From Anaeromyxobacter terrae (GTDB lineage Bacteria; Myxococcota; Myxococcia; Myxococcales; Anaeromyxobacteraceae), in contig NZ_JALCYY010000011.1 of NCBI RefSeq assembly GCF_022690685.1, forward strand, positions 62,001 to 126,000: a stretch of DNA of 64,000 bases, given 5' to 3'. Under the pieces are notes generated by a model, which was not told the DNA's origin, made no database searches, and saw nothing but the letters and a program-made list of their open reading frames with translations. Positions 33,550 through 46,025 of this stretch are shown in pieces. Positions within the stretch are counted from its first letter, which is position 1, and each line of letters starts with the position of its first letter. Made by a program: the position numbers and the translations under genes.

Positions 33550-33825
33550 ATGCCTCGTTCCAGCAGCACCGCGGCGGAGGGATCGCCCCCGCCGCGCCCC
33601 GCGATGCCCCTCGGCCTCCTCGGCGACGGAGAGTCCGCGGAGATCGTCGCCGTCGCCGTCGCCGCCCGCGGCGGGTGCGAGGCGCGTGCGGAGGAGATGG
33701 GCCTCCGCATCGGGAAGCGCGTGGTGATGCTCAGCAACGGCGCGGGCCCGGTGCTCGTCAAGGTGGACGAGTCGCGCATCGCGGTCGATCGCGGCGTCGC
33801 CATGAAGATCAAGGTCACGAGGTGA
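33550..33825 (+). CDS. feoA: FeoA family protein (first copy)
   Basis: 91 residues. After a Pro/Ser-rich leader of about 18 residues comes a FeoA SH3-like domain: MPLGLLGDGESAEIVAV, CEARAEEMGLRIGKRVVML, VLVKVDESRIAVDRGVAMKI. FeoA binds FeoB and modulates its activity. The ATG at 33550 may be too far upstream; ATG 33604 would give a protein of usual size. It lies six bases before a second FeoA gene. Confidence 0.85.
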   Translation: MPRSSSTAAEGSPPPRPAMPLGLLGDGESAEIVAVAVAARGGCEARAEEMGLRIGKRVVMLSNGAGPVLVKVDESRIAVDRGVAMKIKVTR

Positions 33826-33830
33826 CGGAC

Positions 33831-34058
33831 ATGAACCTGGCAAAGCTCGCGCCCGGCGAGAAGGGGCGCATCACGGCGATCGGGGCGATCGGTCCCATGC
33901 GGCGGCGGCTCATGGACATGGGGCTCCTGCCCGGCGAGGAGGTGCGGGTGGAGAAGGTCGCCCCGCTCGGAGATCCCATCGAGGTGCGGATCCGCAGCTA
34001 CCACCTCTCCCTCCGCAAGAAGGAGGCGGAGGGGATCGCGGTGGAGGTGACGCCGTGA
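33831..34058 (+). CDS. feoA: FeoA family protein (second copy)
   Basis: 75 residues, a standard FeoA: MNLAKLAPGEKGRITAIG, then MRRRLMDMGLLPGEEVRVEKVAPLGDP and RSYHLSLRKKEAEGIAVEV. GAGGTGACGGAC precedes the ATG. Its stop overlaps the GTG start of feoB (GTGA), indicating translational coupling and a direct FeoB partner role. Paired FeoA genes occur in several delta-group bacteria. Confidence 0.92.
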   Translation: MNLAKLAPGEKGRITAIGAIGPMRRRLMDMGLLPGEEVRVEKVAPLGDPIEVRIRSYHLSLRKKEAEGIAVEVTP

Positions 34059-36268
34059 GCGCGGCCCCGAAGCTCCCCCCGTTCTCGGCGGCGCACCCCG
34101 CGGCGGCGCGGACCATCACCGTCGCCGTCGCCGGCAACCCGAACTCAGGCAAGTCGACGCTCATCAACGCGATCGCGGGCAGCCGCCTCCACGTCGGCAA
34201 CTGGCCCGGCGTGACGGTCGAGAAGAAGGAGGCCGCCTTCGAGCACGAGGGGCGGCGCATCCGGCTCGTCGATCTGCCGGGGACCTACTCCCTCTCGCCC
34301 TACTCGCAGGAGGAGATCGTCGCGCGCGACTACCTCGCCCACGAGCGGCCGGACGTCATCGTGAACGTCGTGGACTCGACGAACCTCGAGCGGAACCTGT
34401 ACCTCACGGTGCAGCTCCTCGAGCTCGGCATCCCGGTGGTGATGGCGCTCAACGTCTACGACGAGGCGCAGGCGAAGGGCCACCGCATCGACGTGCGCGG
34501 GATCGAGGCGCGGCTCGGCGTGCCCGTGGTGCCGACCTCGGCGACGCGCAAGGAAGGCCTCGCCGAGCTGCTCGGGACCGTCGTCGCCACGGCCGATCGC
34601 CGCCAGGTGCGGACCCCCGCCCCGCTCTCGTACGGCCCGGACCTCGACGCCGCGACCGGGGGCGTGGCGCGTGCGCTCGAGGAGCGCCACCCCGAGCTCA
34701 CGGCGCACTTCCCGGCCCGCTGGCTCGCGCTGAAGCTCATCGAGGGCGACGCGCGCGTGCTCGAGGAGACCGCGCTCGACCGGGGCGCGCTCGTCGCGAG
34801 GCCGCTCGAGCACCTCGTCGCCGCCCACGGCGACGACGTCGAGGCGATCGTCGCCGAGGCGCGCTACGGCCTCGCGGCCGGGCTCACCCGCGAGGTGCTC
34901 GAGAAGCCGCGCCTCCAGAAGACCGAGCTCACCGAGCGGATCGACCGCGTGGTCCTGAACCGCTTCCTCGGGATCCCGATCTTCCTCGCCGCGATGTGGA
35001 TCGTCTTCAAGCTCACCTTCGATCTCTCCGCCCCGTTCGGCGACTGGATCGACGCCATGACGAGCGGGCCGGTGAAGCGCTGGGCGGCGGCGCTGCTCGG
35101 GATGATCGGCGCGCCGGGCTGGACGGTGTCGCTCGTGAACGACGGGATCATCGCGGGCGTCGGGTTCGTCCTCGTCTTCGTCCCCGTCATCTTCGCGATG
35201 ATGTTCTTCATCACCTTCCTCGAGGGCTCGGGCTACATGGCCCGCGCCGCCTTCGTGATGGACAAGGCGATGCACGCGATGGGGCTCCACGGGAAGTCGT
35301 TCATCCCGATGGTCCTCGGCTTCGGCTGCAACGTCCCGGGCGTCTACGCCACCCGCACGCTCGAGAGCGGGCGCGACCGCATCCTCACCGCGCTCCTCAT
35401 CCCGCTCATGTCCTGCGGCGCGCGGCTCCCGGTGTACGTGCTCTTCGTCGGAGTGTTCTTCCCGAACCGCCCCGGCACGGTGATCTGGTCGCTGTACGTC
35501 ATCGGCATCGCGCTCGCGATCACCATGGGCGTCGTCTTCAAGAAGACGCTGTTCCGCGGCGAGGCGCCCGCGTTCATCATGGAGCTGCCGCCCTACCGCA
35601 TGCCGTCCCTGCGCAGCCTCTGCCTCCACACCTGGGAGAAGGGGAAGCACTTCCTCACCAAGGCCGGCACGTACATCCTCGCGGTGTCGGTCATCGTCTG
35701 GTTCATGCTGAACCTGCCGTGGGGCGTGCAGGACAAGAAGGACTCGTACCTCGGCAAGGCGGGCCAGGTGATGGCGCCCGCGCTCGCGCCGCTCGGGTTC
35801 GGGACCTGGGAGGCGGCGTCCTCGCTCATCACCGGCGTCATCGCCAAGGAGATCGTGGTCGGGACGATGTCGGAGATCTACGCGCCGAAGCCCGCCCACG
35901 AGGAGCAGGCGCCGACGTTCGCCGAGGACCTGCGCGAGATCGGCACCTCGTTCGCGGGCGCGGCGCGGGAGGCGCTCTCGAACGTGGTCTCCACCGCGGG
36001 GCTCTCCTCCATCTCCATCGACAAGGCCGACGAGGCGCCCTCCCCGCTCAAGGACGCCGTGCGCGGCGCGTTCACACCGCTCACCGCGCTCGGCTTCATG
36101 GTGTTCGTGCTGCTCTACATGCCCTGCGTGGTGGTCGCCATCGCGATGCGCCAGGAGTTCGGCGGCTGGAAGTGGTTCGGCGTCGCGTTCGCCTACCAGA
36201 CCGCGCTCGCCTGGGGGATGGCGCTCCTCATCTACCAGGGCGGCCGGCTCCTCGGGCTGGGGGCCTGA
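34055..36268 (+). CDS. feoB: Ferrous iron transport GTPase FeoB
   Basis: 737 residues, GTG start coupled to feoA. The N-terminal G domain has G1 GNPNSGKST (27-35), G3 LVDLPGTYSL and G4 as ALNVYDEA. A helical guanine-dissociation inhibitor region follows to about 280. The membrane part begins near 310 and contains the Gate motifs, e.g. FVMDKAMHAMGLHGKSFIPMVLGFGCNVPG with a conserved Cys, and IPLMSCGARLPVYVLFV. It imports Fe2+ across the inner membrane. Two FeoA genes lie before it and a small Cys-containing membrane protein gene follows two bases later. Confidence 0.95.
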   Translation: MSAAPKLPPFSAAHPAAARTITVAVAGNPNSGKSTLINAIAGSRLHVGNWPGVTVEKKEAAFEHEGRRIRLVDLPGTYSLSPYSQEEIVARDYLAHERPDVIVNVVDSTNLERNLYLTVQLLELGIPVVMALNVYDEAQAKGHRIDVRGIEARLGVPVVPTSATRKEGLAELLGTVVATADRRQVRTPAPLSYGPDLDAATGGVARALEERHPELTAHFPARWLALKLIEGDARVLEETALDRGALVARPLEHLVAAHGDDVEAIVAEARYGLAAGLTREVLEKPRLQKTELTERIDRVVLNRFLGIPIFLAAMWIVFKLTFDLSAPFGDWIDAMTSGPVKRWAAALLGMIGAPGWTVSLVNDGIIAGVGFVLVFVPVIFAMMFFITFLEGSGYMARAAFVMDKAMHAMGLHGKSFIPMVLGFGCNVPGVYATRTLESGRDRILTALLIPLMSCGARLPVYVLFVGVFFPNRPGTVIWSLYVIGIALAITMGVVFKKTLFRGEAPAFIMELPPYRMPSLRSLCLHTWEKGKHFLTKAGTYILAVSVIVWFMLNLPWGVQDKKDSYLGKAGQVMAPALAPLGFGTWEAASSLITGVIAKEIVVGTMSEIYAPKPAHEEQAPTFAEDLREIGTSFAGAAREALSNVVSTAGLSSISIDKADEAPSPLKDAVRGAFTPLTALGFMVFVLLYMPCVVVAIAMRQEFGGWKWFGVAFAYQTALAWGMALLIYQGGRLLGLGA

Positions 36269-37568: not shown

Positions 37569-38504
37569 TCAGGCCTGGCCCGCCACCACCAGGATCCAGC
37601 GCAGCGCGAGCCCTCCCGCGAGGACCAGCGCGGGCGCGATCCGGGTCGCGCCGAGGTGCAGGCGGGACTCGAGCGTCTCCATGAGGAGCGGCACCGCGAG
37701 GCCGGCGACGACCACGAGGGCGAAGAACTCCGCCGTGAAGGGGCCGCCCAGCAGGAGCCCGGCGGCGGCGTGGCCCGCCGCGCCGCTCGTCGAGAGCCCG
37801 ACGAGGAACAGCACGAGCAGCGCCGCCTCGACCGCGATCGCCGCCCGGTCCCAGCGCGTCACGAGCCGCCGCTCCTCGGCGTCGAGCGCGAAGAGGAGCA
37901 GGAACGCCGCCCCGGTGGAGAGGCCCGAGACGAGGAAGATCGGGCCGAGCAGCGCGGAGCTCCAGAGAGCGCGCGCGCCGAGGGTGGAGAGGAGGACGCC
38001 GGTGTACACGCCGAGCGCGACGCCCACCCACAGGTTCGCGCGGAGGAGGGCCGGCGCGTGGCGGAGCGCGTAGGCTCGCGCGGCGCGGACGAGGCCGCCC
38101 AGCCCGGCGCGGCCCGCGAGCGCCGCGACCCGCTCCGCCTGCGCGTCGTCGAGCCCGGCGAGCGCGACGAGCAGGCTCATCGGGTAGACGGCGACGAGGA
38201 TCCACGCGCCCCACGACATGGGCGAGGTCGGGCGGAGCGCGAGGTAGAAGCGCGCGACGTGGATCTTGTGGGCGAGGTCCAGGAAGAGCGCGCCCATGCC
38301 GACCGACACGAGCAACGGCGCGGCGAAGCCGAGCCAGCGCGCGGCGGCGGAGCGCTCCGGCCGCCGCGCGGCGAGGAGCGAGGTCACGATCATGAGCCCC
38401 GCCGCCATCCCGCCGAGGAAGAGGTAGACCGGGATCTCCCAGCCCCAGATGTGCAGCTGCGGATCGATGAGCCGGCTGTGCCGCGCGATGTCGAGCTCGG
38501 TCAT
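37569..38504 (-). CDS. psrC: NrfD/PsrC-type membrane quinone-interacting subunit
   Basis: 311 residues with about eight membrane helices. It starts MTELDIARHSRLIDPQLHIW and contains EIPVYLFLGGMAAGLMIVTS, VSVGMGALFLDLAHKIHVARF and SWGAWILVAVYPMSLLV, blocks shared by PsrC/NrfD proteins that exchange electrons between the quinone pool and an iron-sulfur subunit. It is the last gene of the sulfur operon, 17 bases after the transporter-rhodanese fusion. GGGAGACACC precedes the ATG. Confidence 0.9.
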   Translation of the reverse strand: MTELDIARHSRLIDPQLHIWGWEIPVYLFLGGMAAGLMIVTSLLAARRPERSAAARWLGFAAPLLVSVGMGALFLDLAHKIHVARFYLALRPTSPMSWGAWILVAVYPMSLLVALAGLDDAQAERVAALAGRAGLGGLVRAARAYALRHAPALLRANLWVGVALGVYTGVLLSTLGARALWSSALLGPIFLVSGLSTGAAFLLLFALDAEERRLVTRWDRAAIAVEAALLVLFLVGLSTSGAAGHAAAGLLLGGPFTAEFFALVVVAGLAVPLLMETLESRLHLGATRIAPALVLAGGLALRWILVVAGQA

Positions 38505-38521: not shown

Positions 38522-39721
38522 TTAGCCGCTGCAGCCGCCGCCGCCCGCCTTGCGCGGCGCGCCCGGCGCGGCGGCGGGCACGGGGGGTGGCGGCGCGGCC
38601 TTCATGCCGGTCATCGCCGCGTGGATCCCGGCGCGCAGCCGGTACGCCTCGAGCTCGGCGGCGGGCGCGCCCGCCGTGGGCGGCGCCGGCGGGGTGAGCG
38701 CGAACGCCTCCCACGCCGCCCAGCCGCCCTCGAGCGCGAGCACCCGGCCTCGATACGAGGCGGCGGCCGCGGGCACCCCGTCGAGCGCGGTGTCCGAAAC
38801 GAGCACGAGGTCGCGCCCCGGGCTCGCGTCGGCGAGCCCGAGCGAGCCGAGCCTGTCCTGCGGCACGCACTCGGCGCCGGGGATCCGCTTCGCCGAGCAG
38901 GCCTCGAGCGACCGCAAGTCGACGATCCGGAGCTTCCAGGGCTCGTCGAACACGCGCCGGGCCAGCGCGAGCGGCGCGAGACCGGTCGCCACGCGCCCGC
39001 TCTCGCGCGCCCCGGTCGGCGTCGCGAGGCCCACGAGGCCGAGGGCCGCCGCGGCGGCGAGCCCCGCGAACACGAAGCGCCCGGGCCGCCCCGCCGGCGT
39101 CGGCATCGCGCTCGGGTCGGAGCGGCCGGCGAGGACGCGCTCCAGCTTCTCGGCGCCCACGAAGCACCCGACGGCCATGACGGTGACGGCGAGCGCGACG
39201 ACGTACGGGCCGGACCGCGCCGGCAGGCGGAAGAGCTCCCACAGGTAGAAGTTGCCGAGATCGCCCGCGCCGTGGAACCTCGCAAACCCGGGCCGCCACT
39301 CGAGCTCGGCCCAGAGCACCTGCCCGACGATGACGCCGAGCACGGTCATGAGCCCGTCGAGCTTGCCGGACGCCATCGCCACGAAGGACGTGCCGGGGCA
39401 GTAGCCCGAGACGATGAAGCCCGCGCCGAGCAGGAACCCGCCGGCGATCATCGGCACGAGGTAGGTGCCGCTCGTCGCGTGATCGGCGAGCGCGCGGAAA
39501 TCGGCGAGCCCGAGCGCGGAGGCGAGCACGACCCCGAGCATCGCCGTCACGATCGCGCTGAACATGACCTTGAAGACGGTCATGTCGTGCCCGTAGAACT
39601 GGGCGGCGAGCTTGTTCGCGCGCCCGAAGCCGGCGCGCTCGAGCACGAAGCCGAAGCCGAAGCCGATGAGGACCGCGGCGACGAGCCCGAGCTCGAGGGG
39701 CGGCAGGACGGGGAAGGTCAT
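38522..39721 (-). CDS. YeeE/YedE thiosulfate-type transporter half fused to a Cys-less rhodanese domain with GGGGC tail
   Basis: 399 residues. Residues 1-205 are a YeeE/YedE (Sulf_transp) half with the signature IVSGYCPGTSFVAMASGKLDG; that Cys is thought to handle sulfur. A further hydrophobic helix (about 214-236) leads to a rhodanese-like domain (about 250-345: LRIVDLRSLEACSAKRIPGA, then LALEGGWAAWEAF). At the catalytic position the family Cys is replaced: LVLVSDTALDG. The end is a Pro/Ala-rich linker and KAGGGGCSG, placing one Cys three residues from the C-terminus. ATG 39721 overlaps the preceding stop (ATGA). Likely role: moving sulfur or thiosulfate-type substrate for the PsrABC enzyme; the tail Cys may carry persulfide (inference). 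Confidence 0.82.
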   Translation of the reverse strand: MTFPVLPPLELGLVAAVLIGFGFGFVLERAGFGRANKLAAQFYGHDMTVFKVMFSAIVTAMLGVVLASALGLADFRALADHATSGTYLVPMIAGGFLLGAGFIVSGYCPGTSFVAMASGKLDGLMTVLGVIVGQVLWAELEWRPGFARFHGAGDLGNFYLWELFRLPARSGPYVVALAVTVMAVGCFVGAEKLERVLAGRSDPSAMPTPAGRPGRFVFAGLAAAAALGLVGLATPTGARESGRVATGLAPLALARRVFDEPWKLRIVDLRSLEACSAKRIPGAECVPQDRLGSLGLADASPGRDLVLVSDTALDGVPAAAASYRGRVLALEGGWAAWEAFALTPPAPPTAGAPAAELEAYRLRAGIHAAMTGMKAAPPPPVPAAAPGAPRKAGGGGCSG

Positions 39722-40227
39722 CGCCACTCCCTCCTCACGAACCAGGCGAGCGCGTAGCCGCCGCCGAACACCGAGAACATGAAGGCCCAGGCGCCGACGG
39801 AGAGGAGCGCGCCGCCCGAGAGCGCCTGGCCGGAGGTGCAGCCGCGCGTCATCTTGGCGGCCGCGCCCATGAGCACGCCGCCGAGGAGCGCGAGCGCGAG
39901 CCGCGCGCCGTTGCCGATGCGCGGCCCCTTCAGCACCTCACCCCGCAGCCGGCCGGAGGTGTAGGCCGCGACGACGCCGCCGAGCAGCGCGCCGAAGATC
40001 TCGAACACGAGCCAGGTGACGTGCGGGCTCGCCGCGGCGCGCGCGAGCGGCGGCGTGCTCGCGACGTGCCCGGGCGCGAAGAGGTCGAGCGCGGCGATGC
40101 CGGCGCGGAGCGAGGCGCCGGAGGCGCCGAGGCCCGAGCCCATCACCAGGAACGAGGTGAGGAGCACGAGGCCGAGCGCGACGCCGGCGAGGTACGGGTT
40201 CCAGAACTTGTCGGGGTTCCGTTGCAT
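39718..40227 (-). CDS. YeeE/YedE family membrane protein, small half
   Basis: 169 residues with about four membrane helices and the family signature KMTRGCTSGQALSGGALLSVGAW near the C half. It pairs with the larger YeeE half encoded next, with which its stop overlaps (ATGA). Such split pairs correspond to the two repeats of full-length thiosulfate transporters of the TsuA type. Early segment: MQRNPDKFWNPYLAGVALG. It lies nine bases after the PsrB gene. Confidence 0.85.
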   Translation of the reverse strand: MQRNPDKFWNPYLAGVALGLVLLTSFLVMGSGLGASGASLRAGIAALDLFAPGHVASTPPLARAAASPHVTWLVFEIFGALLGGVVAAYTSGRLRGEVLKGPRIGNGARLALALLGGVLMGAAAKMTRGCTSGQALSGGALLSVGAWAFMFSVFGGGYALAWFVRREWR

Positions 40228-40236
40228 CGGCGCCTC

Positions 40237-40776
40237 CTACGTGAGGAAGAAGACGTTCGGCTCGTTGCCCGACCCGGGCTGGAGCACCTTCACGCGCCGC
40301 GAGCGGGTGAGCTCCGCGACGCGGCTCGCGGGATCGGCGAGGTCGCCGAACGTGAGCGCGCGCGTGGGGCAGGTCTCGACGCAGGCGGGGAGCTTCCCCT
40401 CGCGCACGCGGTGCAGGCAGAACGTGCACTTGTCCACGAAGCCCTCCGGGTGGACGTAGCGCGCGCCGTAGGGGCAGGAGGCGACGCAGGCCTTGCAGCC
40501 CGTGCACTTCGCCCGCGTCACCCCCACCACCCCGCCGTCCGCGACGTGGCTCGCGCCCGTCGGGCAGGCGGAGACGCAGGACGGGCGGCTGCACTGGTTG
40601 CAGCGCTCGGAGCGGATCTCCATCGAGAGCGCCGGGAACGCGCCGCGCGTCTCCTCGGCGATCCAGTCGCGGAACCCGCCGCTCGGCAGCGCGTTCTCGG
40701 TCTTGCAGGCGATGACGCAGGCGCTGCAGCCGACGCAGCGGGCGGTGTCGACCGCCATGGCGTAGCGCTTCCTCAT
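40237..40776 (-). CDS. psrB: PsrB/NrfC-type iron-sulfur electron-transfer subunit
   Basis: 179 residues with four [4Fe-4S] binding patterns: CVGCSACVIACK near the start, CNQCSRPSCVSACPTGA, CTGCKACVASCPYGA and CTFCLHRVREGKLPACVETCPTRAL. This is the standard ferredoxin-like subunit that links a molybdopterin catalytic subunit to a NrfD membrane anchor. No signal peptide is seen; it can travel with the Tat-exported PsrA. The start overlaps the psrA stop (ATGA). Confidence 0.93.
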   Translation of the reverse strand: MRKRYAMAVDTARCVGCSACVIACKTENALPSGGFRDWIAEETRGAFPALSMEIRSERCNQCSRPSCVSACPTGASHVADGGVVGVTRAKCTGCKACVASCPYGARYVHPEGFVDKCTFCLHRVREGKLPACVETCPTRALTFGDLADPASRVAELTRSRRVKVLQPGSGNEPNVFFLT

Positions 40777-43007
40777 GCCGCCCTCTCGGCGCGCTCGAGG
40801 CGCACGAAGTTCACGCTCATGCCGGTGCCGCCCATGATCGGGTCGACGGCGTAGCGGGTGACGAGCGCGCTGTCGGAGGCGCCGCGGCCGTACGCGTAGC
40901 CGAGCCGCCTCGCGGTCTGTCCCCAGCCGTGCACGAGGTAGACGCAGTCACCGCGGATCCGCTGCGTCACCTTCGCGCGCACCGGCCCGGAGCGCGCCCC
41001 GTCCTGGTTCACGAGGAACACGCGCTCGCCGTCCTCGAGCGGCTCCGCGAACCCGGGCAGCGCGCGCGCGACGTCCGCGTTCACCCACACCTCGTTCTCC
41101 GGGTAGGGCTCGGCGAGGAGCCGGTTGTTCACGGTGCGGCCGAAGGTGTGGGTCGGGGCGCGCCCCATGAGCAGCCGGAACTGGCCCGGGGGCGGCTCCT
41201 CGTGCGGGTAGTACTGCGGGAGCGGGTCGAACCCCAGCTTCGCGAGCTCCTCGCTGCGCAGCTGGATCTTCCCGGACTCGTGGGACACCTCGACCGCGAG
41301 CCCCTCCTCCTCGCAGGTCGCGACCTCGCGGCCCATCACGACGCCGGTCTCGCGCGCGCGGGCGACGTCGTGACCGCCCGCCCGGAGCCGCGCGTCCACG
41401 TACTCGCGCGCGTCCTTCCACGGGAAGTGCTCCGCGAGCCCGACCCGCCCGGCGAGCTCCTTCGCGATCCACCAGCCGGGCTTCGAGTCGTGGAGCGGCG
41501 GGACCACCTCCTGCCGCACCGCGAGGAACGGCCGCTTGTGCGCCGGCGCGGCGACGTCGTCGTCGCGCTCGAGGTAGGTCGCCTCGGGGAGCACCACGTC
41601 GCTCCACCCGCAGATCTCGGCGGGCAGGACGTCGATCGACACGACGAGCTCGAGCCCCTCGAGCGCCTTCACCGTCTGGCGCCGGTCGGGCAGCGCCTGC
41701 AGGAGGTTGCAGCCGTAGACGATCCAGGCCTTGAGGTCGTAGAGCGCCTGGCCCGAGACGCTCGCGTCGCACAGGCCCGAGGCGATGACCTCGGTCGCGA
41801 CGGGGTAGCCGCCCTTCTTCGGCCGGTCGGCGGCGCCCTTCGCGCCGTGCGGGGCCTCCGCCGCCACCGGGTAGGGCGGGAGCGACAGCTTCGAGTGGCT
41901 CACGTAGCCGCCGCGCCGGCCCCAGCTGCCGAGCAGCGCCGCGAGGATCGCCATCGCCCGGGCGCGCTGCGTGTCGTCGCCGTACCAGGTGGTGTGGCGG
42001 CCCGGGTGGACGAGCGAGGCCGGCCGCGCCGACGCGATGAGCCGCGCGCTGTCGCGGATGAGCTCGGGGCGGATGCCGGTGATGGGATAGGCCCACTCCG
42101 GCGTCTTGTCCGCCACGTGGGCGCGGAGCTCCTCGAGGCCGACCGCGTGCTTCGCGAGGTACTCGGCGTCGTAGGCGTTCTCCGCCAGCATCACGTTCAT
42201 CCAGGCGAGGAGGAGCGCGATGTCGGTGCCGGGCTTGATCGGCAGCCAGTAGCGCGCCTTGCTCGCGGCGACCGAGAAGCGCGGGTCGACCACCACGAGC
42301 TCCGCACCGCGACCGATCGCCTCGGCGAGCTCCTGCACCTGGGTGTTGTGCATGTTCTCGCCGAGGTGGCTGCCGATGAGCGTGATGACCCGCGCGTTCG
42401 CGAGGTCGATCGGCTCCGGCGAGCCGAGCGGCGTGCCGAAGGTGAGGAGGTAGCCCGCCTCGCGCGGCCCGCGGCACTGCGCGTAGGAGGGCGCGCCGAC
42501 GTTGGGCGAGCCCCACGCCTTCATGAAGTGCTTGAACCAGGTCCCGCCCGAGCCGTGCGTGAAGAGCGCCACCGCCTCGGGGCCGTGCCGGCGCTTCACC
42601 TCGAGGAGCCCCTCCCCCACGCGGTTCAGGGCAGCGTCCCAGCTCACCTCCTCGAACACGTCCTCGCCGCGCTTCTGCGTGCGGACGAGCGGCCTCCTCA
42701 GGCGATCGGGATCGTAGAGGAGGCCGGTCGCGCCGGCGCCGCGCGGGCAGAGCATGCCGCGCGAGAGGGGGTGGTCGGGATTGCCGACCACCTTCGTCAC
42801 CCGCCCGTCCTTCACGTGCGCCTTCACCCCGCAGCCCCAGAAGCAGAGCTCGCAGTACGAGGCGACGACGCGGTCGCCCTCGGTGGCGGGATCCTCCACG
42901 CGATCCGCGTCGAGGCCCCACCAGCGCGTGGTGAGCCCGGAGGCGAGGGCCGCGCCGCCGGCCGCGGCGCCGCCGATCTGGATGAACTTCCTGCGGGTGA
43001 GAGTCAT
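40773..43007 (-). CDS. psrA: Molybdopterin oxidoreductase catalytic subunit, polysulfide/thiosulfate reductase type
   Basis: 744 residues. A Tat signal begins the protein (TRRKFIQIGGAAAGGAAL). The [4Fe-4S] ligands are C52, C55, C59 and C87 (YCELCFWGCG, MLCPRGA). The probable Mo-ligating Cys is C178 in SYAQCRGPREAGY, near the position of the Mo-Cys in known PsrA. Further family blocks are VVDPRFSVAASKARYWLPIKPGTD, the VYGCNLLQALPD region and WVNADVARALP. It reduces a sulfur compound (polysulfide, thiosulfate or tetrathionate) in the periplasm; arsenate or other oxyanions cannot be excluded, but YeeE neighbours favour sulfur. Confidence 0.88.
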   Translation of the reverse strand: MTLTRRKFIQIGGAAAGGAALASGLTTRWWGLDADRVEDPATEGDRVVASYCELCFWGCGVKAHVKDGRVTKVVGNPDHPLSRGMLCPRGAGATGLLYDPDRLRRPLVRTQKRGEDVFEEVSWDAALNRVGEGLLEVKRRHGPEAVALFTHGSGGTWFKHFMKAWGSPNVGAPSYAQCRGPREAGYLLTFGTPLGSPEPIDLANARVITLIGSHLGENMHNTQVQELAEAIGRGAELVVVDPRFSVAASKARYWLPIKPGTDIALLLAWMNVMLAENAYDAEYLAKHAVGLEELRAHVADKTPEWAYPITGIRPELIRDSARLIASARPASLVHPGRHTTWYGDDTQRARAMAILAALLGSWGRRGGYVSHSKLSLPPYPVAAEAPHGAKGAADRPKKGGYPVATEVIASGLCDASVSGQALYDLKAWIVYGCNLLQALPDRRQTVKALEGLELVVSIDVLPAEICGWSDVVLPEATYLERDDDVAAPAHKRPFLAVRQEVVPPLHDSKPGWWIAKELAGRVGLAEHFPWKDAREYVDARLRAGGHDVARARETGVVMGREVATCEEEGLAVEVSHESGKIQLRSEELAKLGFDPLPQYYPHEEPPPGQFRLLMGRAPTHTFGRTVNNRLLAEPYPENEVWVNADVARALPGFAEPLEDGERVFLVNQDGARSGPVRAKVTQRIRGDCVYLVHGWGQTARRLGYAYGRGASDSALVTRYAVDPIMGGTGMSVNFVRLERAERAA

Positions 43008-43049: not shown

Positions 43050-44324
43050 CTAGAAGTGGTAGGCGAGCCCGACGTCGATCTGGAGCTGCGACATCTCCGT
43101 CGAGTACGCGGCGATGCCCTGGCCGCTGCCCATCGGCGGCGGCGGCGCGGCGTTCGCGCCCTCGAGCTTCGCGTTCAGCGCGTAGACCGCCGCGACGTTC
43201 ACGTTCAGCTTCTCGCCGAGCGCATAGCCCGCGCCCGCGGTGACATGGTGCTCGGAGACGGCCGGGAACGCCATGTTCTCGAACGCCCGGTCCGGGTCGA
43301 GCGGCATCTTCCCGTAGTTGTAGCCCGCGCGGAGCGCGAGCCGCGCCGTCGGCTTCACCTGGGCGCCGACCTTCACGACCCACTGGTCGCTCCAGCGCAT
43401 GTCGAACGGCATCGCGCCGGTGGCGTTCGGATCGCTCGTGTACGCGGGGAGCCCGGCGCCCATGGTGCTCGACCAGTCGATCCACTGGACGTCCACCGCG
43501 ACGAGGAGCGCGTCCACCGGCGTCACGGCGACGCCGATCGTCGCGCTCTGCGGCTGGTCGAACGCGAGCGTGTCGGTGCCGCCCGGGATGGTGGTGCCCG
43601 GCGCCATCGGGTTCGGGCGCGCCGGGACGTCGAAGGAGAAGTCCTGGAACCAGCTGCGCGTCTCGTACGCGGCGCCGAGGGTGACGCGCTTCACCGGCGA
43701 GAACTTGACGCCGAAGGTCGCGCCGCCGCCCACGGTGGTCGAGGTGTCGTGCGCCGCCTGGCCGGCGCCGGAGGCGACGTCGTACTTCATCTGCGCCACC
43801 ATCACGTTCGCGGTGACGCCGAGGGTGAGGCGGTCGTTCACCCGGTAGGACGCGCCCGGCGTGAAGCGGCCCTGCATGTACGAGGTGAGCGTCGGCCCGT
43901 AGTAGAGGTTCGTCGCGTAGTCCACGCCCATCCCGGCGACGCCGAACACGCCGAGCCCGGCGGAGATCCGGTCGGTCACAGGCTGGACGTAGGCGATGAC
44001 CGGGATCGGCGAGGCGCCGCGGCCGGAGTCGAGCGACGCGCCGTCGTTCGCGACGAACATCGCGGGCATGCTCCCCGTCGCGCTGTAGCTGACCGACGGC
44101 TTGAAGTACGAGCCGCCGAGCTCGAGGCACCGGCCCAGGTCGGCGATGCCGGCCGGGTTCGTGAGGAGCGAGGCGCCGTCGAGCGTCGCGCCGACGCCGA
44201 CGCCGCCCATCGAGTCCTGCACGGCGCCGAAGCCGATCATCCGCATGCCGTTCGTGGCGTGCGCCGCGGCCGGCGCCAGGAGCGACAGCGCCGCGAGTAG
44301 CGAGGCGATCCGGTTCTTCTTCAT
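43050..44324 (-). CDS. FadL/OmpP1-family outer-membrane porin
   Basis: 424 residues with a signal peptide (KKNRIASLLAALSLLAPAAAHA) directly followed by the FadL-type N-terminus TNGMRMIGFGAVQDSMGG and then TLDGASLLTNPAGIADL. The body is a predicted long-chain-substrate barrel (YMQGRFTPGASYRVNDRLTLGV, RLALRAGYNYGKMPL) and ends in F. FadL proteins pass hydrophobic molecules; in this operon it could admit hydrophobic sulfur species, though that is inference. It is the first gene, with a sigma-54 element 95 bases upstream. Confidence 0.87.
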   Translation of the reverse strand: MKKNRIASLLAALSLLAPAAAHATNGMRMIGFGAVQDSMGGVGVGATLDGASLLTNPAGIADLGRCLELGGSYFKPSVSYSATGSMPAMFVANDGASLDSGRGASPIPVIAYVQPVTDRISAGLGVFGVAGMGVDYATNLYYGPTLTSYMQGRFTPGASYRVNDRLTLGVTANVMVAQMKYDVASGAGQAAHDTSTTVGGGATFGVKFSPVKRVTLGAAYETRSWFQDFSFDVPARPNPMAPGTTIPGGTDTLAFDQPQSATIGVAVTPVDALLVAVDVQWIDWSSTMGAGLPAYTSDPNATGAMPFDMRWSDQWVVKVGAQVKPTARLALRAGYNYGKMPLDPDRAFENMAFPAVSEHHVTAGAGYALGEKLNVNVAAVYALNAKLEGANAAPPPPMGSGQGIAAYSTEMSQLQIDVGLAYHF

Positions 44325-44519: not shown

Positions 44520-44561
44520 ACACGCGGCGTGCCAGGGTGTGGCGTCGATACGGAGGTCACG

Positions 44562-46025
44562 ATGAGTCCCGCCGAGAGCCCCACCACCAACCGCGACGTC
44601 GCCTTCGCCGCCGTGAACGCCGCGTTCGGCTCGCTCGGCCGCATCTGCATGGCCCTCGACGGCCAGTTCCGGATCCGCCACGCCTCGGAGCGCGTCGAGG
44701 CGCTCCTCGGGCCGGGCGCGGCCGGCCGCATCTCGGGTGCGCCGGTCGAGACGGTGCTCGGCGCAGAGCTGTTCGGGCCGGAAGGCCCGCTCCGTCAGGC
44801 CCTCCTCGCGGGCGAGCGGCGCGAGGGCTGGCGCGCCTACCTCCAGTGCGAGCGGGGCCCACGCCTCCTGTCGGTCACCGCGGCGCCCCTCCTCCACGAT
44901 CCGCACGGCGTCTGCGACCCCTCCGCCGTCTACCTCGTCATCCTCCGCCCCGCCGACGACGAGACCCCCGACGTCTGCGCGCCCGTCGCCGGGTTCGGCG
45001 TCATGTGCCGCTCGCAGGCGATGACGCGGGTGTTCCGGCTCATCGAGACGCTGCAGCACAGCGAGTCCACCGTGCTCGTCACGGGCGAGAGCGGCACCGG
45101 CAAGGAGGTGATGGCGCGGATCATCCACGCGCACTCCCCGCGCAGGAACGGGCCCTTCGTCGCGGTGAACGCGGCCGCCCTCCCGGCGGAGCTGCTCGAG
45201 AGCGAGCTCTTCGGGCACGTGCGCGGCGCCTTCACCGGCGCGATCCGTGACCGGACCGGGCGGTTCGAGTCGGCCGAGGGCGGGACGCTCTTCCTCGACG
45301 AGATCGGCGACCTGCCGCTGGCGGTGCAGGTGAAGCTCCTGCGCGTCCTGCAGGAGCACACCTACGAGCGCGTCGGCGACGACGCGGTGCGCCGGACGAA
45401 CGCGCGGATCATCGCGGCGACCCACCGCGATCTCCGGCGCGCCGTCGCGGCCGGCACCTTCCGCGAGGACCTCTACTACCGGCTGCGGGTGTTCCCGGTG
45501 GAGCTCCCGCCCCTGCGCGCGCGGCGCGAGGACATCGAGCCCATCGCGCGGGTCCTCCTCGGGCGGGTGGGCGCGCGGACCGCGCGGGCGCTGCGCTTCT
45601 CGCCGGACGCGCTCCGCGTCCTCCTCTCGCACGACTGGCCCGGCAACGTGCGCGAGCTCGAGAACGCGCTCGAGTACGCCGCGACGGTGTGCAAGGGCCA
45701 GACGCTCCAGCCCGAGGACCTGCCGCCCGAGCTCGGCGCGGGCGCCCCGCCCCGCGATCCGGTCGCGGCGCCGCTGGCGCCCTCCGCCACGACGGCGGCC
45801 TTCCTCGCCGCCGCCGCCGGGCACCGCGCCGACGCGCACGACGAGCGCGCCACCCTGCAGGCGACGCTCGACGCCCACCGCTGGAGCCGGGCGGACACCG
45901 CGAAGGCGCTCGGCCTCTCGCGCAGCACGCTCTGGCGGCGGATGCGCGCGCTCGGGCTGCTCGACGCGAGCGCGCCGGCGCACGAGAGCGCCGCGGGCGA
46001 CGCGCCGGCGCCGAGCGCGCTCTGA
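44562..46025 (+). CDS. Sigma-54-dependent activator with PAS sensor, divergent from the sulfur operon
   Basis: 487 residues. An N-terminal PAS-like domain (about 20-140: GRICMALDGQFRIRHASERVEALLG) is followed by the AAA+ domain with Walker A TGESGTGKE, sigma-54 loop GAFTGA, Walker B LFLDEIGDLP and sensor region DWPGNVRELENALEY. A Fis-type HTH ends the protein (RADTAKALGLSRSTLWRRM). There is no response-regulator receiver domain, so it probably senses a ligand or redox state through PAS. CGGAGG lies six bases before the ATG. It faces the FadL-psr operon across a 237-base gap holding a sigma-54 promoter and palindromes. Confidence 0.9.
   Translation: MSPAESPTTNRDVAFAAVNAAFGSLGRICMALDGQFRIRHASERVEALLGPGAAGRISGAPVETVLGAELFGPEGPLRQALLAGERREGWRAYLQCERGPRLLSVTAAPLLHDPHGVCDPSAVYLVILRPADDETPDVCAPVAGFGVMCRSQAMTRVFRLIETLQHSESTVLVTGESGTGKEVMARIIHAHSPRRNGPFVAVNAAALPAELLESELFGHVRGAFTGAIRDRTGRFESAEGGTLFLDEIGDLPLAVQVKLLRVLQEHTYERVGDDAVRRTNARIIAATHRDLRRAVAAGTFREDLYYRLRVFPVELPPLRARREDIEPIARVLLGRVGARTARALRFSPDALRVLLSHDWPGNVRELENALEYAATVCKGQTLQPEDLPPELGAGAPPRDPVAAPLAPSATTAAFLAAAAGHRADAHDERATLQATLDAHRWSRADTAKALGLSRSTLWRRMRALGLLDASAPAHESAAGDAPAPSAL

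Follow-up and report, generated by a model that had tools for sequence, protein, structure and literature searches.

Gene content of the psr-yeeE locus

The window, a stretch of 64,000 nucleotides from Anaeromyxobacter terrae, carries a minus-strand run of genes encoding, in order, a FadL-type outer membrane channel, a PsrA/PhsA-like molybdoenzyme, a PsrB-like iron-sulfur subunit, the C-terminal half of a YeeE transporter, a fusion of the N-terminal half of YeeE to a rhodanese-fold domain, and an NrfD/PsrC-like membrane subunit. In the Anaeromyxobacter group, the named relative closest to this genome is Anaeromyxobacter soli, at 89%. The molybdoenzyme, which has a Tat-type N-terminus (40773..43007, minus strand), and the iron-sulfur subunit (40237..40776, minus strand) were identified by profile matches, and the membrane subunit (37569..38504, minus strand) by PF03916 (E 2e-35). 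The FadL/TodX-type channel gene that opens the run (43050..44324, minus strand; PF03349, E 2e-24) recurs in related operons, and its product might be the entry route for hydrophobic sulfur species. A divergent gene (44562..46025, plus strand; PF00158, E 4e-70) encodes a sigma-54-dependent activator that is also kept beside related operons and is the likely regulator of the psr-yeeE run. No convincing -24/-12 site for this activator was found; a single two-mismatch site before the FadL gene (44520-44534, minus strand) was rejected, with 20 such sites found against 35 expected by chance, and a scan for sigma-70 promoters returned no site. Genes for ferrous iron transport, FeoA-like and FeoB, are found on the opposite strand immediately downstream of the operon (33824-36268 of the window).

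The fusion gene (38522..39721, minus strand, as are all of its features given below) encodes 399 amino acids from its ATG; an in-frame GTG two codons upstream is an alternative start that would extend the gene to 39727. The product consists of the YeeE N-terminal half, a sixth hydrophobic segment, a rhodanese domain without its catalytic Cys, a Pro/Ala linker, and the terminal sequence GGGGCSG. The initial annotation, made from the DNA without database searches, had the coordinates, the reading frame, and the joining of YeeE to rhodanese all correct, as PF04143 and the rhodanese fold confirm.

Residues 1-206 (39104..39721) form a PmpB-like domain that matches positions 2-196 of the Sulf_transp model PF04143 (Pfam; E 7e-12, 45.9 bits against a cut-off of 27) and contains the pore motif GYCPGTS, whose Cys108 is invariant in an alignment of ten fusions. 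The adjoining partner gene (39718..40227, minus strand) encodes a PmpA-like C-terminal half that matches positions 175-309 of the same model (63.4 bits against 27) and has the motif TRGCTSG, with Cys130. Because fusion and partner between them cover both parts of PF04143, the transporter is split in the style of PmpB and PmpA, each half having a single conserved Cys at the pore, as in that pair (PMC11582611); unlike PmpB, the N-terminal half here adds a hydrophobic segment, a C-terminal rhodanese domain, and a Cys tail. The added segment (residues 216-234; 39020..39076), recognized from hydropathy and loop charges, is retained in paralogs that have no rhodanese. With six hydrophobic segments in all, and with loops 1 and 5 positively charged, everything after residue 234 is placed in the periplasm, so that hydropathy and loop charges predict the rhodanese domain and the tail to lie on the same side of the membrane as the Tat-type PsrA.

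A rhodanese fold without the catalytic cysteine

The domain at residues 246-342 (38696..38986) scores 21.1 bits to PF00581, just below the Pfam cut-off of 22.2. Profile matches to solved structures in the PDB likewise point to rhodanese, and an AlphaFold2 model gives residues 246-371 a pLDDT of about 90-92 and a rhodanese topology, in which a strand ends just before Ser309. When the domain model was submitted to Foldseek, the top solved structures were rhodaneses (E 3e-5). A profile of ten fusions, compared with solved rhodaneses, matches Ser309 (codon 38795..38797) exactly to the catalytic Cys of 3iwh and of domain 4 of 1yt8, a position also supported by the multiple alignment with control rhodaneses. 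The protein thus has the fold of a rhodanese but Ser309 in place of the catalytic Cys of an active sulfurtransferase.

The same loss is seen in nine fused homologs, down to 42% identity, none of which has the rhodanese Cys. The column of Ser309 varies among Ser, Gly, Ala, and Pro in the fusions, and what is constant is the absence of Cys. In the wider set of tail-bearing rhodaneses, made up of 27 in the alignment plus one (L114) initially taken for a control, the catalytic Cys is absent from 28 of 28, while it is present in all five control rhodaneses; one tail-bearing sequence (L030) has a Cys one position before the catalytic column. An active site without Cys, as first read from the DNA, is therefore upheld by the alignment to 1yt8 and 3iwh and by the relatives, among which the initial annotation had asked for homologs that keep the catalytic Cys as counterevidence; the 28 supply none. 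Conservation of the Ser at this site, which it had proposed to check, is not supported, given the Gly, Ala, and Pro found in homologs.

Two further cysteines, Cys275 and Cys285 (38867..38899), had been overlooked. They are invariant in the ten aligned fusions, forming a C-x9-C motif around RIPGAEC, and the remaining tailed rhodaneses do not have them. The pair may form a structural disulfide or act as an additional site for sulfur, and it could be the true reactive site of the fused subfamily.

A conserved Gly-Cys tail

The fusion ends in RKAGGGGCSG. The tail proper, GGGGCSG (residues 393-399; 38525..38545; Cys397 codon at 38531-38533), follows a Pro/Ala linker (residues 372-393; 38543..38608) that varies in sequence and length across the ten fusions. 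In the same alignment GGGC is invariant at the C-terminus, followed by SG, GG, or L. The AlphaFold2 model assigns residues 391-399 a pLDDT below 50, and the tail is predicted to be disordered. The presence of GGGC in all ten aligned fusions excludes a sequencing error at the end of the gene, a concern raised when the tail was first noticed, and all 28 tail-bearing rhodaneses keep the tail Cys. As measured on the predicted genes of the fetched loci, a GGC or GAC tail occurs in 18 of 391 confident genes, and all 18 are fusions or their tailed counterparts; none of the roughly 370 remaining genes of these loci has one, so that the tail is not a product of chance. Selenocysteine at this position was ruled out, since every tail inspected has a Cys codon; flags for an internal TGA on matches in relatives are taken to be matches that run past the ends of genes. 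A search of the open-access literature found no description of the Cys tail or of the transporter-rhodanese fusion, although one may still exist.

The tail occurs on several scaffolds

A census was made of Myxococcota loci with a split YeeE that are complete on the relevant side, with two copies cut by contig ends (both type C, below) omitted. In 31 of these 32 loci the transporter has a Cys-tailed partner, although most of the loci come from one family and are related, so that the counts do not represent independent events. Five arrangements were found, which we designate A, F, B, C, and D. Type A, the fused Cys-less rhodanese in psrABC operons, occurs in nine Anaeromyxobacteraceae genomes and in an unclassified member of the Myxococcales (L033). 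Type F comprises A-like fusions from two other myxobacterial families (L016, L114), with the endings KKKEGC or KKEGC. In type B (six loci), a YeeE half without rhodanese is followed by a separate Cys-less rhodanese that has its own N-terminal hydrophobic segment, ends in KKKISGGCG or KKKIGGGCG, and adjoins PsrA and a fusion of PsrB to cytochrome b561. In type C (eight loci), the rhodanese fused to the YeeE half is longer, again Cys-less, and ends in KGGCG, and the adjoining octahaem cytochrome scores above the cut-off of TIGR04315, the tetrathionate reductase family.

Type D (five loci) dispenses with the rhodanese. Here a YeeE half that has the sixth hydrophobic segment is followed by a small secreted protein, ending in FFKKAGGC or FFKKPGGC, for which no rhodanese match was detected. 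The gene order in one such genome (G012, locus L098) is YeeE1, YeeE2, small tailed protein, psrA, psrB, nrfD, and the small protein therefore occupies the place where a rhodanese is otherwise fused. Its identification as ExtJ (NF040942) was rejected, as one member scored 22.1 bits against a cut-off of 52.5 and two others gave no match.

Tailed rhodaneses also accompany other forms of the transporter. An unsplit YeeE (L025) has an anchored Cys-less rhodanese ending in KAGGGCL. Sampling beyond Myxococcota consists of two plasmid records, the only matches of the fusion in a plasmid collection: in Gemmatirosa kalamazoonensis (Gemmatimonadota; L072, 5496-7097) a YeeE pair is followed by a secreted Cys-less rhodanese that has Ser at the catalytic site and ends in RRRGC, and in Sulfuricella the YeeE pair has no tailed partner. 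The separate rhodanese of type B had no match in the plasmid collection. Within the census, the one exception is a genome (G003; L096, 6026-8213) in which the split YeeE pair is followed directly by an octahaem cytochrome and no tailed protein occurs in the locus.

In a phylogenetic tree of the YeeE halves, types B and C each have a single origin, and D and A fall next to each other within one group, with moderate support (85-91%). This pattern is consistent with the replacement of one scaffold by another while the tail was kept. Judged from these comparisons, the tail Cys is the part kept across scaffolds, the rhodanese Cys and even the rhodanese itself are dispensable, and the rhodanese is only one of several scaffolds for the tail. 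The docking role that had been suggested for the rhodanese domain is not borne out as an essential one, because related operons swap in a different protein bearing the same tail.

Comparison with known sulfur carriers

The closest parallel to the tail is that of SoxY, in which a swinging arm with the C-terminal sequence GGCGG binds sulfur intermediates through its Cys (PMC6067878, PMC5336275). Both have a Gly-rich C-terminus with a single Cys on a flexible arm, the arm of the fusion being predicted to be periplasmic, and several fusions end in GGGCGG. Published gene neighborhoods show partners of the kinds found here: soxY genes adjoin YeeE/D and the octahaem tetrathionate reductase gene otr (PMC11237559), and pmpAB adjoins a SoxYZ fusion (PMC11582611). 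The scaffold differs, however: the tail sits on a rhodanese fold or on a small secreted protein, whereas SoxY has a domain of its own (PF13501); a Pfam scan of the fusion found only Sulf_transp, DUF6691, and Rhodanese, so that the protein has a GGC-type arm but no SoxY domain. There is also no SoxZ here, the context is reductive (Psr or octahaem cytochrome) rather than Sox, and in the fusion the arm is covalently joined to the transporter. SoxY itself was not found in the A. terrae genome by a search that was positive in congeners, where it ends in KVTLGGCGG (L111), and it is therefore not the local carrier.

A second parallel lies on the other side of the membrane. In the characterized YeeE-YeeD pair, the Cys of YeeD serves as a "fourth cysteine" at the transporter's cytoplasmic exit (PMC11073785). 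YeeD/TsuB resembles the present system in having a carrier Cys at one mouth of YeeE, sometimes fused to the transporter (PMC11073785), but YeeD has a TusA fold and serves the cytoplasmic exit, whereas the arm described here is predicted at the periplasmic mouth. The carrier originally invoked for the tail was DsrC. Like LbpA, in which the Cys is often flanked by Gly (PMC6067878), DsrC carries sulfur on a near-C-terminal Cys at a flexible end; however, both proteins are cytoplasmic and have unrelated folds, and DsrC has two cysteines on its arm. A periplasmic C-terminal GGC(G/S)G is far closer to SoxY (PMC6067878), and the DsrC-like arm was dropped as an explanation.

For the rhodanese domain, a relevant comparison is Sud of Wolinella succinogenes, a periplasmic rhodanese-fold protein that passes polysulfide sulfur to PsrA. 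The predicted location, the fold, and the company of PsrA are alike, but Sud holds sulfur on the Cys of its rhodanese loop, while the fusion is without that Cys and has its candidate carrier Cys in the tail. With the sulfur-carrying Cys of the rhodanese lost, the tail would in effect have taken over the carrier thiol from the active-site loop.

A candidate periplasmic carrier arm

Because the tail turns up on further proteins, some of them unrelated, next to nearly all of the related transporters examined, it is probably a periplasmic, SoxY-like sulfur-carrying arm. Building on the SoxY parallel, the published neighbors of soxY and pmpAB, and the Cys of YeeD, we propose, with a probability of roughly 0.6, that the conserved functional element of these loci is a flexible arm of this kind, comparable to GGCGG in SoxY, serving the split YeeE and a co-encoded periplasm-facing sulfur reductase. 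The tail Cys would take up sulfane sulfur, polysulfide, or thiosulfate, becoming a persulfide or S-thiosulfonate; the loaded tail, tethered in the fusion to the transporter through the rhodanese-fold domain, would swing between the PsrA active site and the periplasmic mouth of YeeE, whose pore residues are Cys108 and Cys130; and the Cys would then be released as a thiol. Depending on the locus, the reductase partner would be PsrABC or the octahaem cytochrome, and the tail Cys would be the periplasmic counterpart of the YeeD Cys at the cytoplasmic exit. The loading of sulfur, the direction of transfer, and the docking of the tail are what we infer for such a system. The earlier idea of the tail Cys as a carrier for both transporter and reductase survives in part: it fits the PsrA/B/C operon, the predicted periplasmic topology, and the flexibility of the tail, and the DsrC model attached to it does not. 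Weighing against the carrier-arm proposal are the G003 locus and the Sulfuricella pair, neither of which has a tailed partner, the tailed small proteins in loci without YeeE, and the invariant Cys275/Cys285.

The tail Cys might instead act as a thiol-redox relay in the manner of DsbD, exchanging disulfides with Cys275/Cys285 or with cysteines of the transporter and so keeping a periplasmic partner reduced. The invariance of that pair in the fused subfamily and the pore cysteines of YeeE speak for a relay. A relay is nevertheless unlikely: types B, C, and F and the small secreted protein all keep the tail without Cys275/Cys285, no thioredoxin-like CxxC partner is seen in the operons, and carriers typically have such a lone Cys on a Gly arm.

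Binding of another chalcogen or a metal (products of selenium or tellurium oxyanions, copper, iron), for uptake or detoxification rather than sulfur metabolism, is a quite improbable role for the tail. The YeeE/YedE family does include putative selenium transporters (PMC13188914), but the corresponding match to TIGR04112 lies far under its cut-off (26.5 against 200 bits). One weak ExtJ match of the small tailed protein, which was not reproduced with other members, and the nearby FeoA and FeoB genes would fit such a role, against which the recurrent neighbors are PsrABC or enzymes of the tetrathionate reductase family.

Being short, basic, and C-terminal, the tail also resembles a sorting signal, and might be recognized or attached (as a docking peptide, or as a lipid or covalent anchor) rather than act as a reactive thiol. 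Signals of the GlyGly-CTERM or MYXO-CTERM type need a hydrophobic segment after the motif. None follows the motif here, transmembrane segments already anchor most of the carriers, and the residues after the Cys vary (none, SG, GG, G, or L), so that a signal seems very unlikely. That the domain is a degenerate, functionless pseudo-rhodanese with an incidental tail, in a genome of 74% GC where GGC, GCC, and GGG codons are common, is already refuted by homologs, as the same end recurs in ten aligned fusions and in other proteins and is missing from the surrounding genes.

These proteins may form a previously unrecognized class of periplasmic sulfur carriers, a broader claim to which we give about even odds. 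The class would be defined only by a basic, Gly-rich C-terminal Cys tail borne on several scaffolds, its members would be non-orthologous counterparts of SoxY that supply sulfur to, or take it from, split YeeE and dissimilatory sulfur reductases, and the fusion would have its carrier built into the transporter itself. The manner in which YeeE/SoxT transporters are offered sulfur from the periplasm has yet to be settled (PMC11582611), and a transporter bearing its own carrier arm would make that step directly testable in a single protein. The occurrence of the tail on pseudo-rhodaneses and on an apparently unrelated protein suggests that some "inactive" Cys-less rhodaneses are carriers whose thiol has been relocated to a tail. 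The tail may also serve as a short sequence signature for locating periplasmic sulfur-reduction systems.

Small secreted proteins related to those of type D, ending in YFRKTAGC, were also observed in loci without YeeE (L055, L056, L057, L061, and L067), encoded with a putative porin on one side and an octahaem cytochrome on the other. Tailed small proteins found beside octahaem cytochromes where YeeE is missing suggest that the reductase may accompany the tail more constantly than YeeE does.
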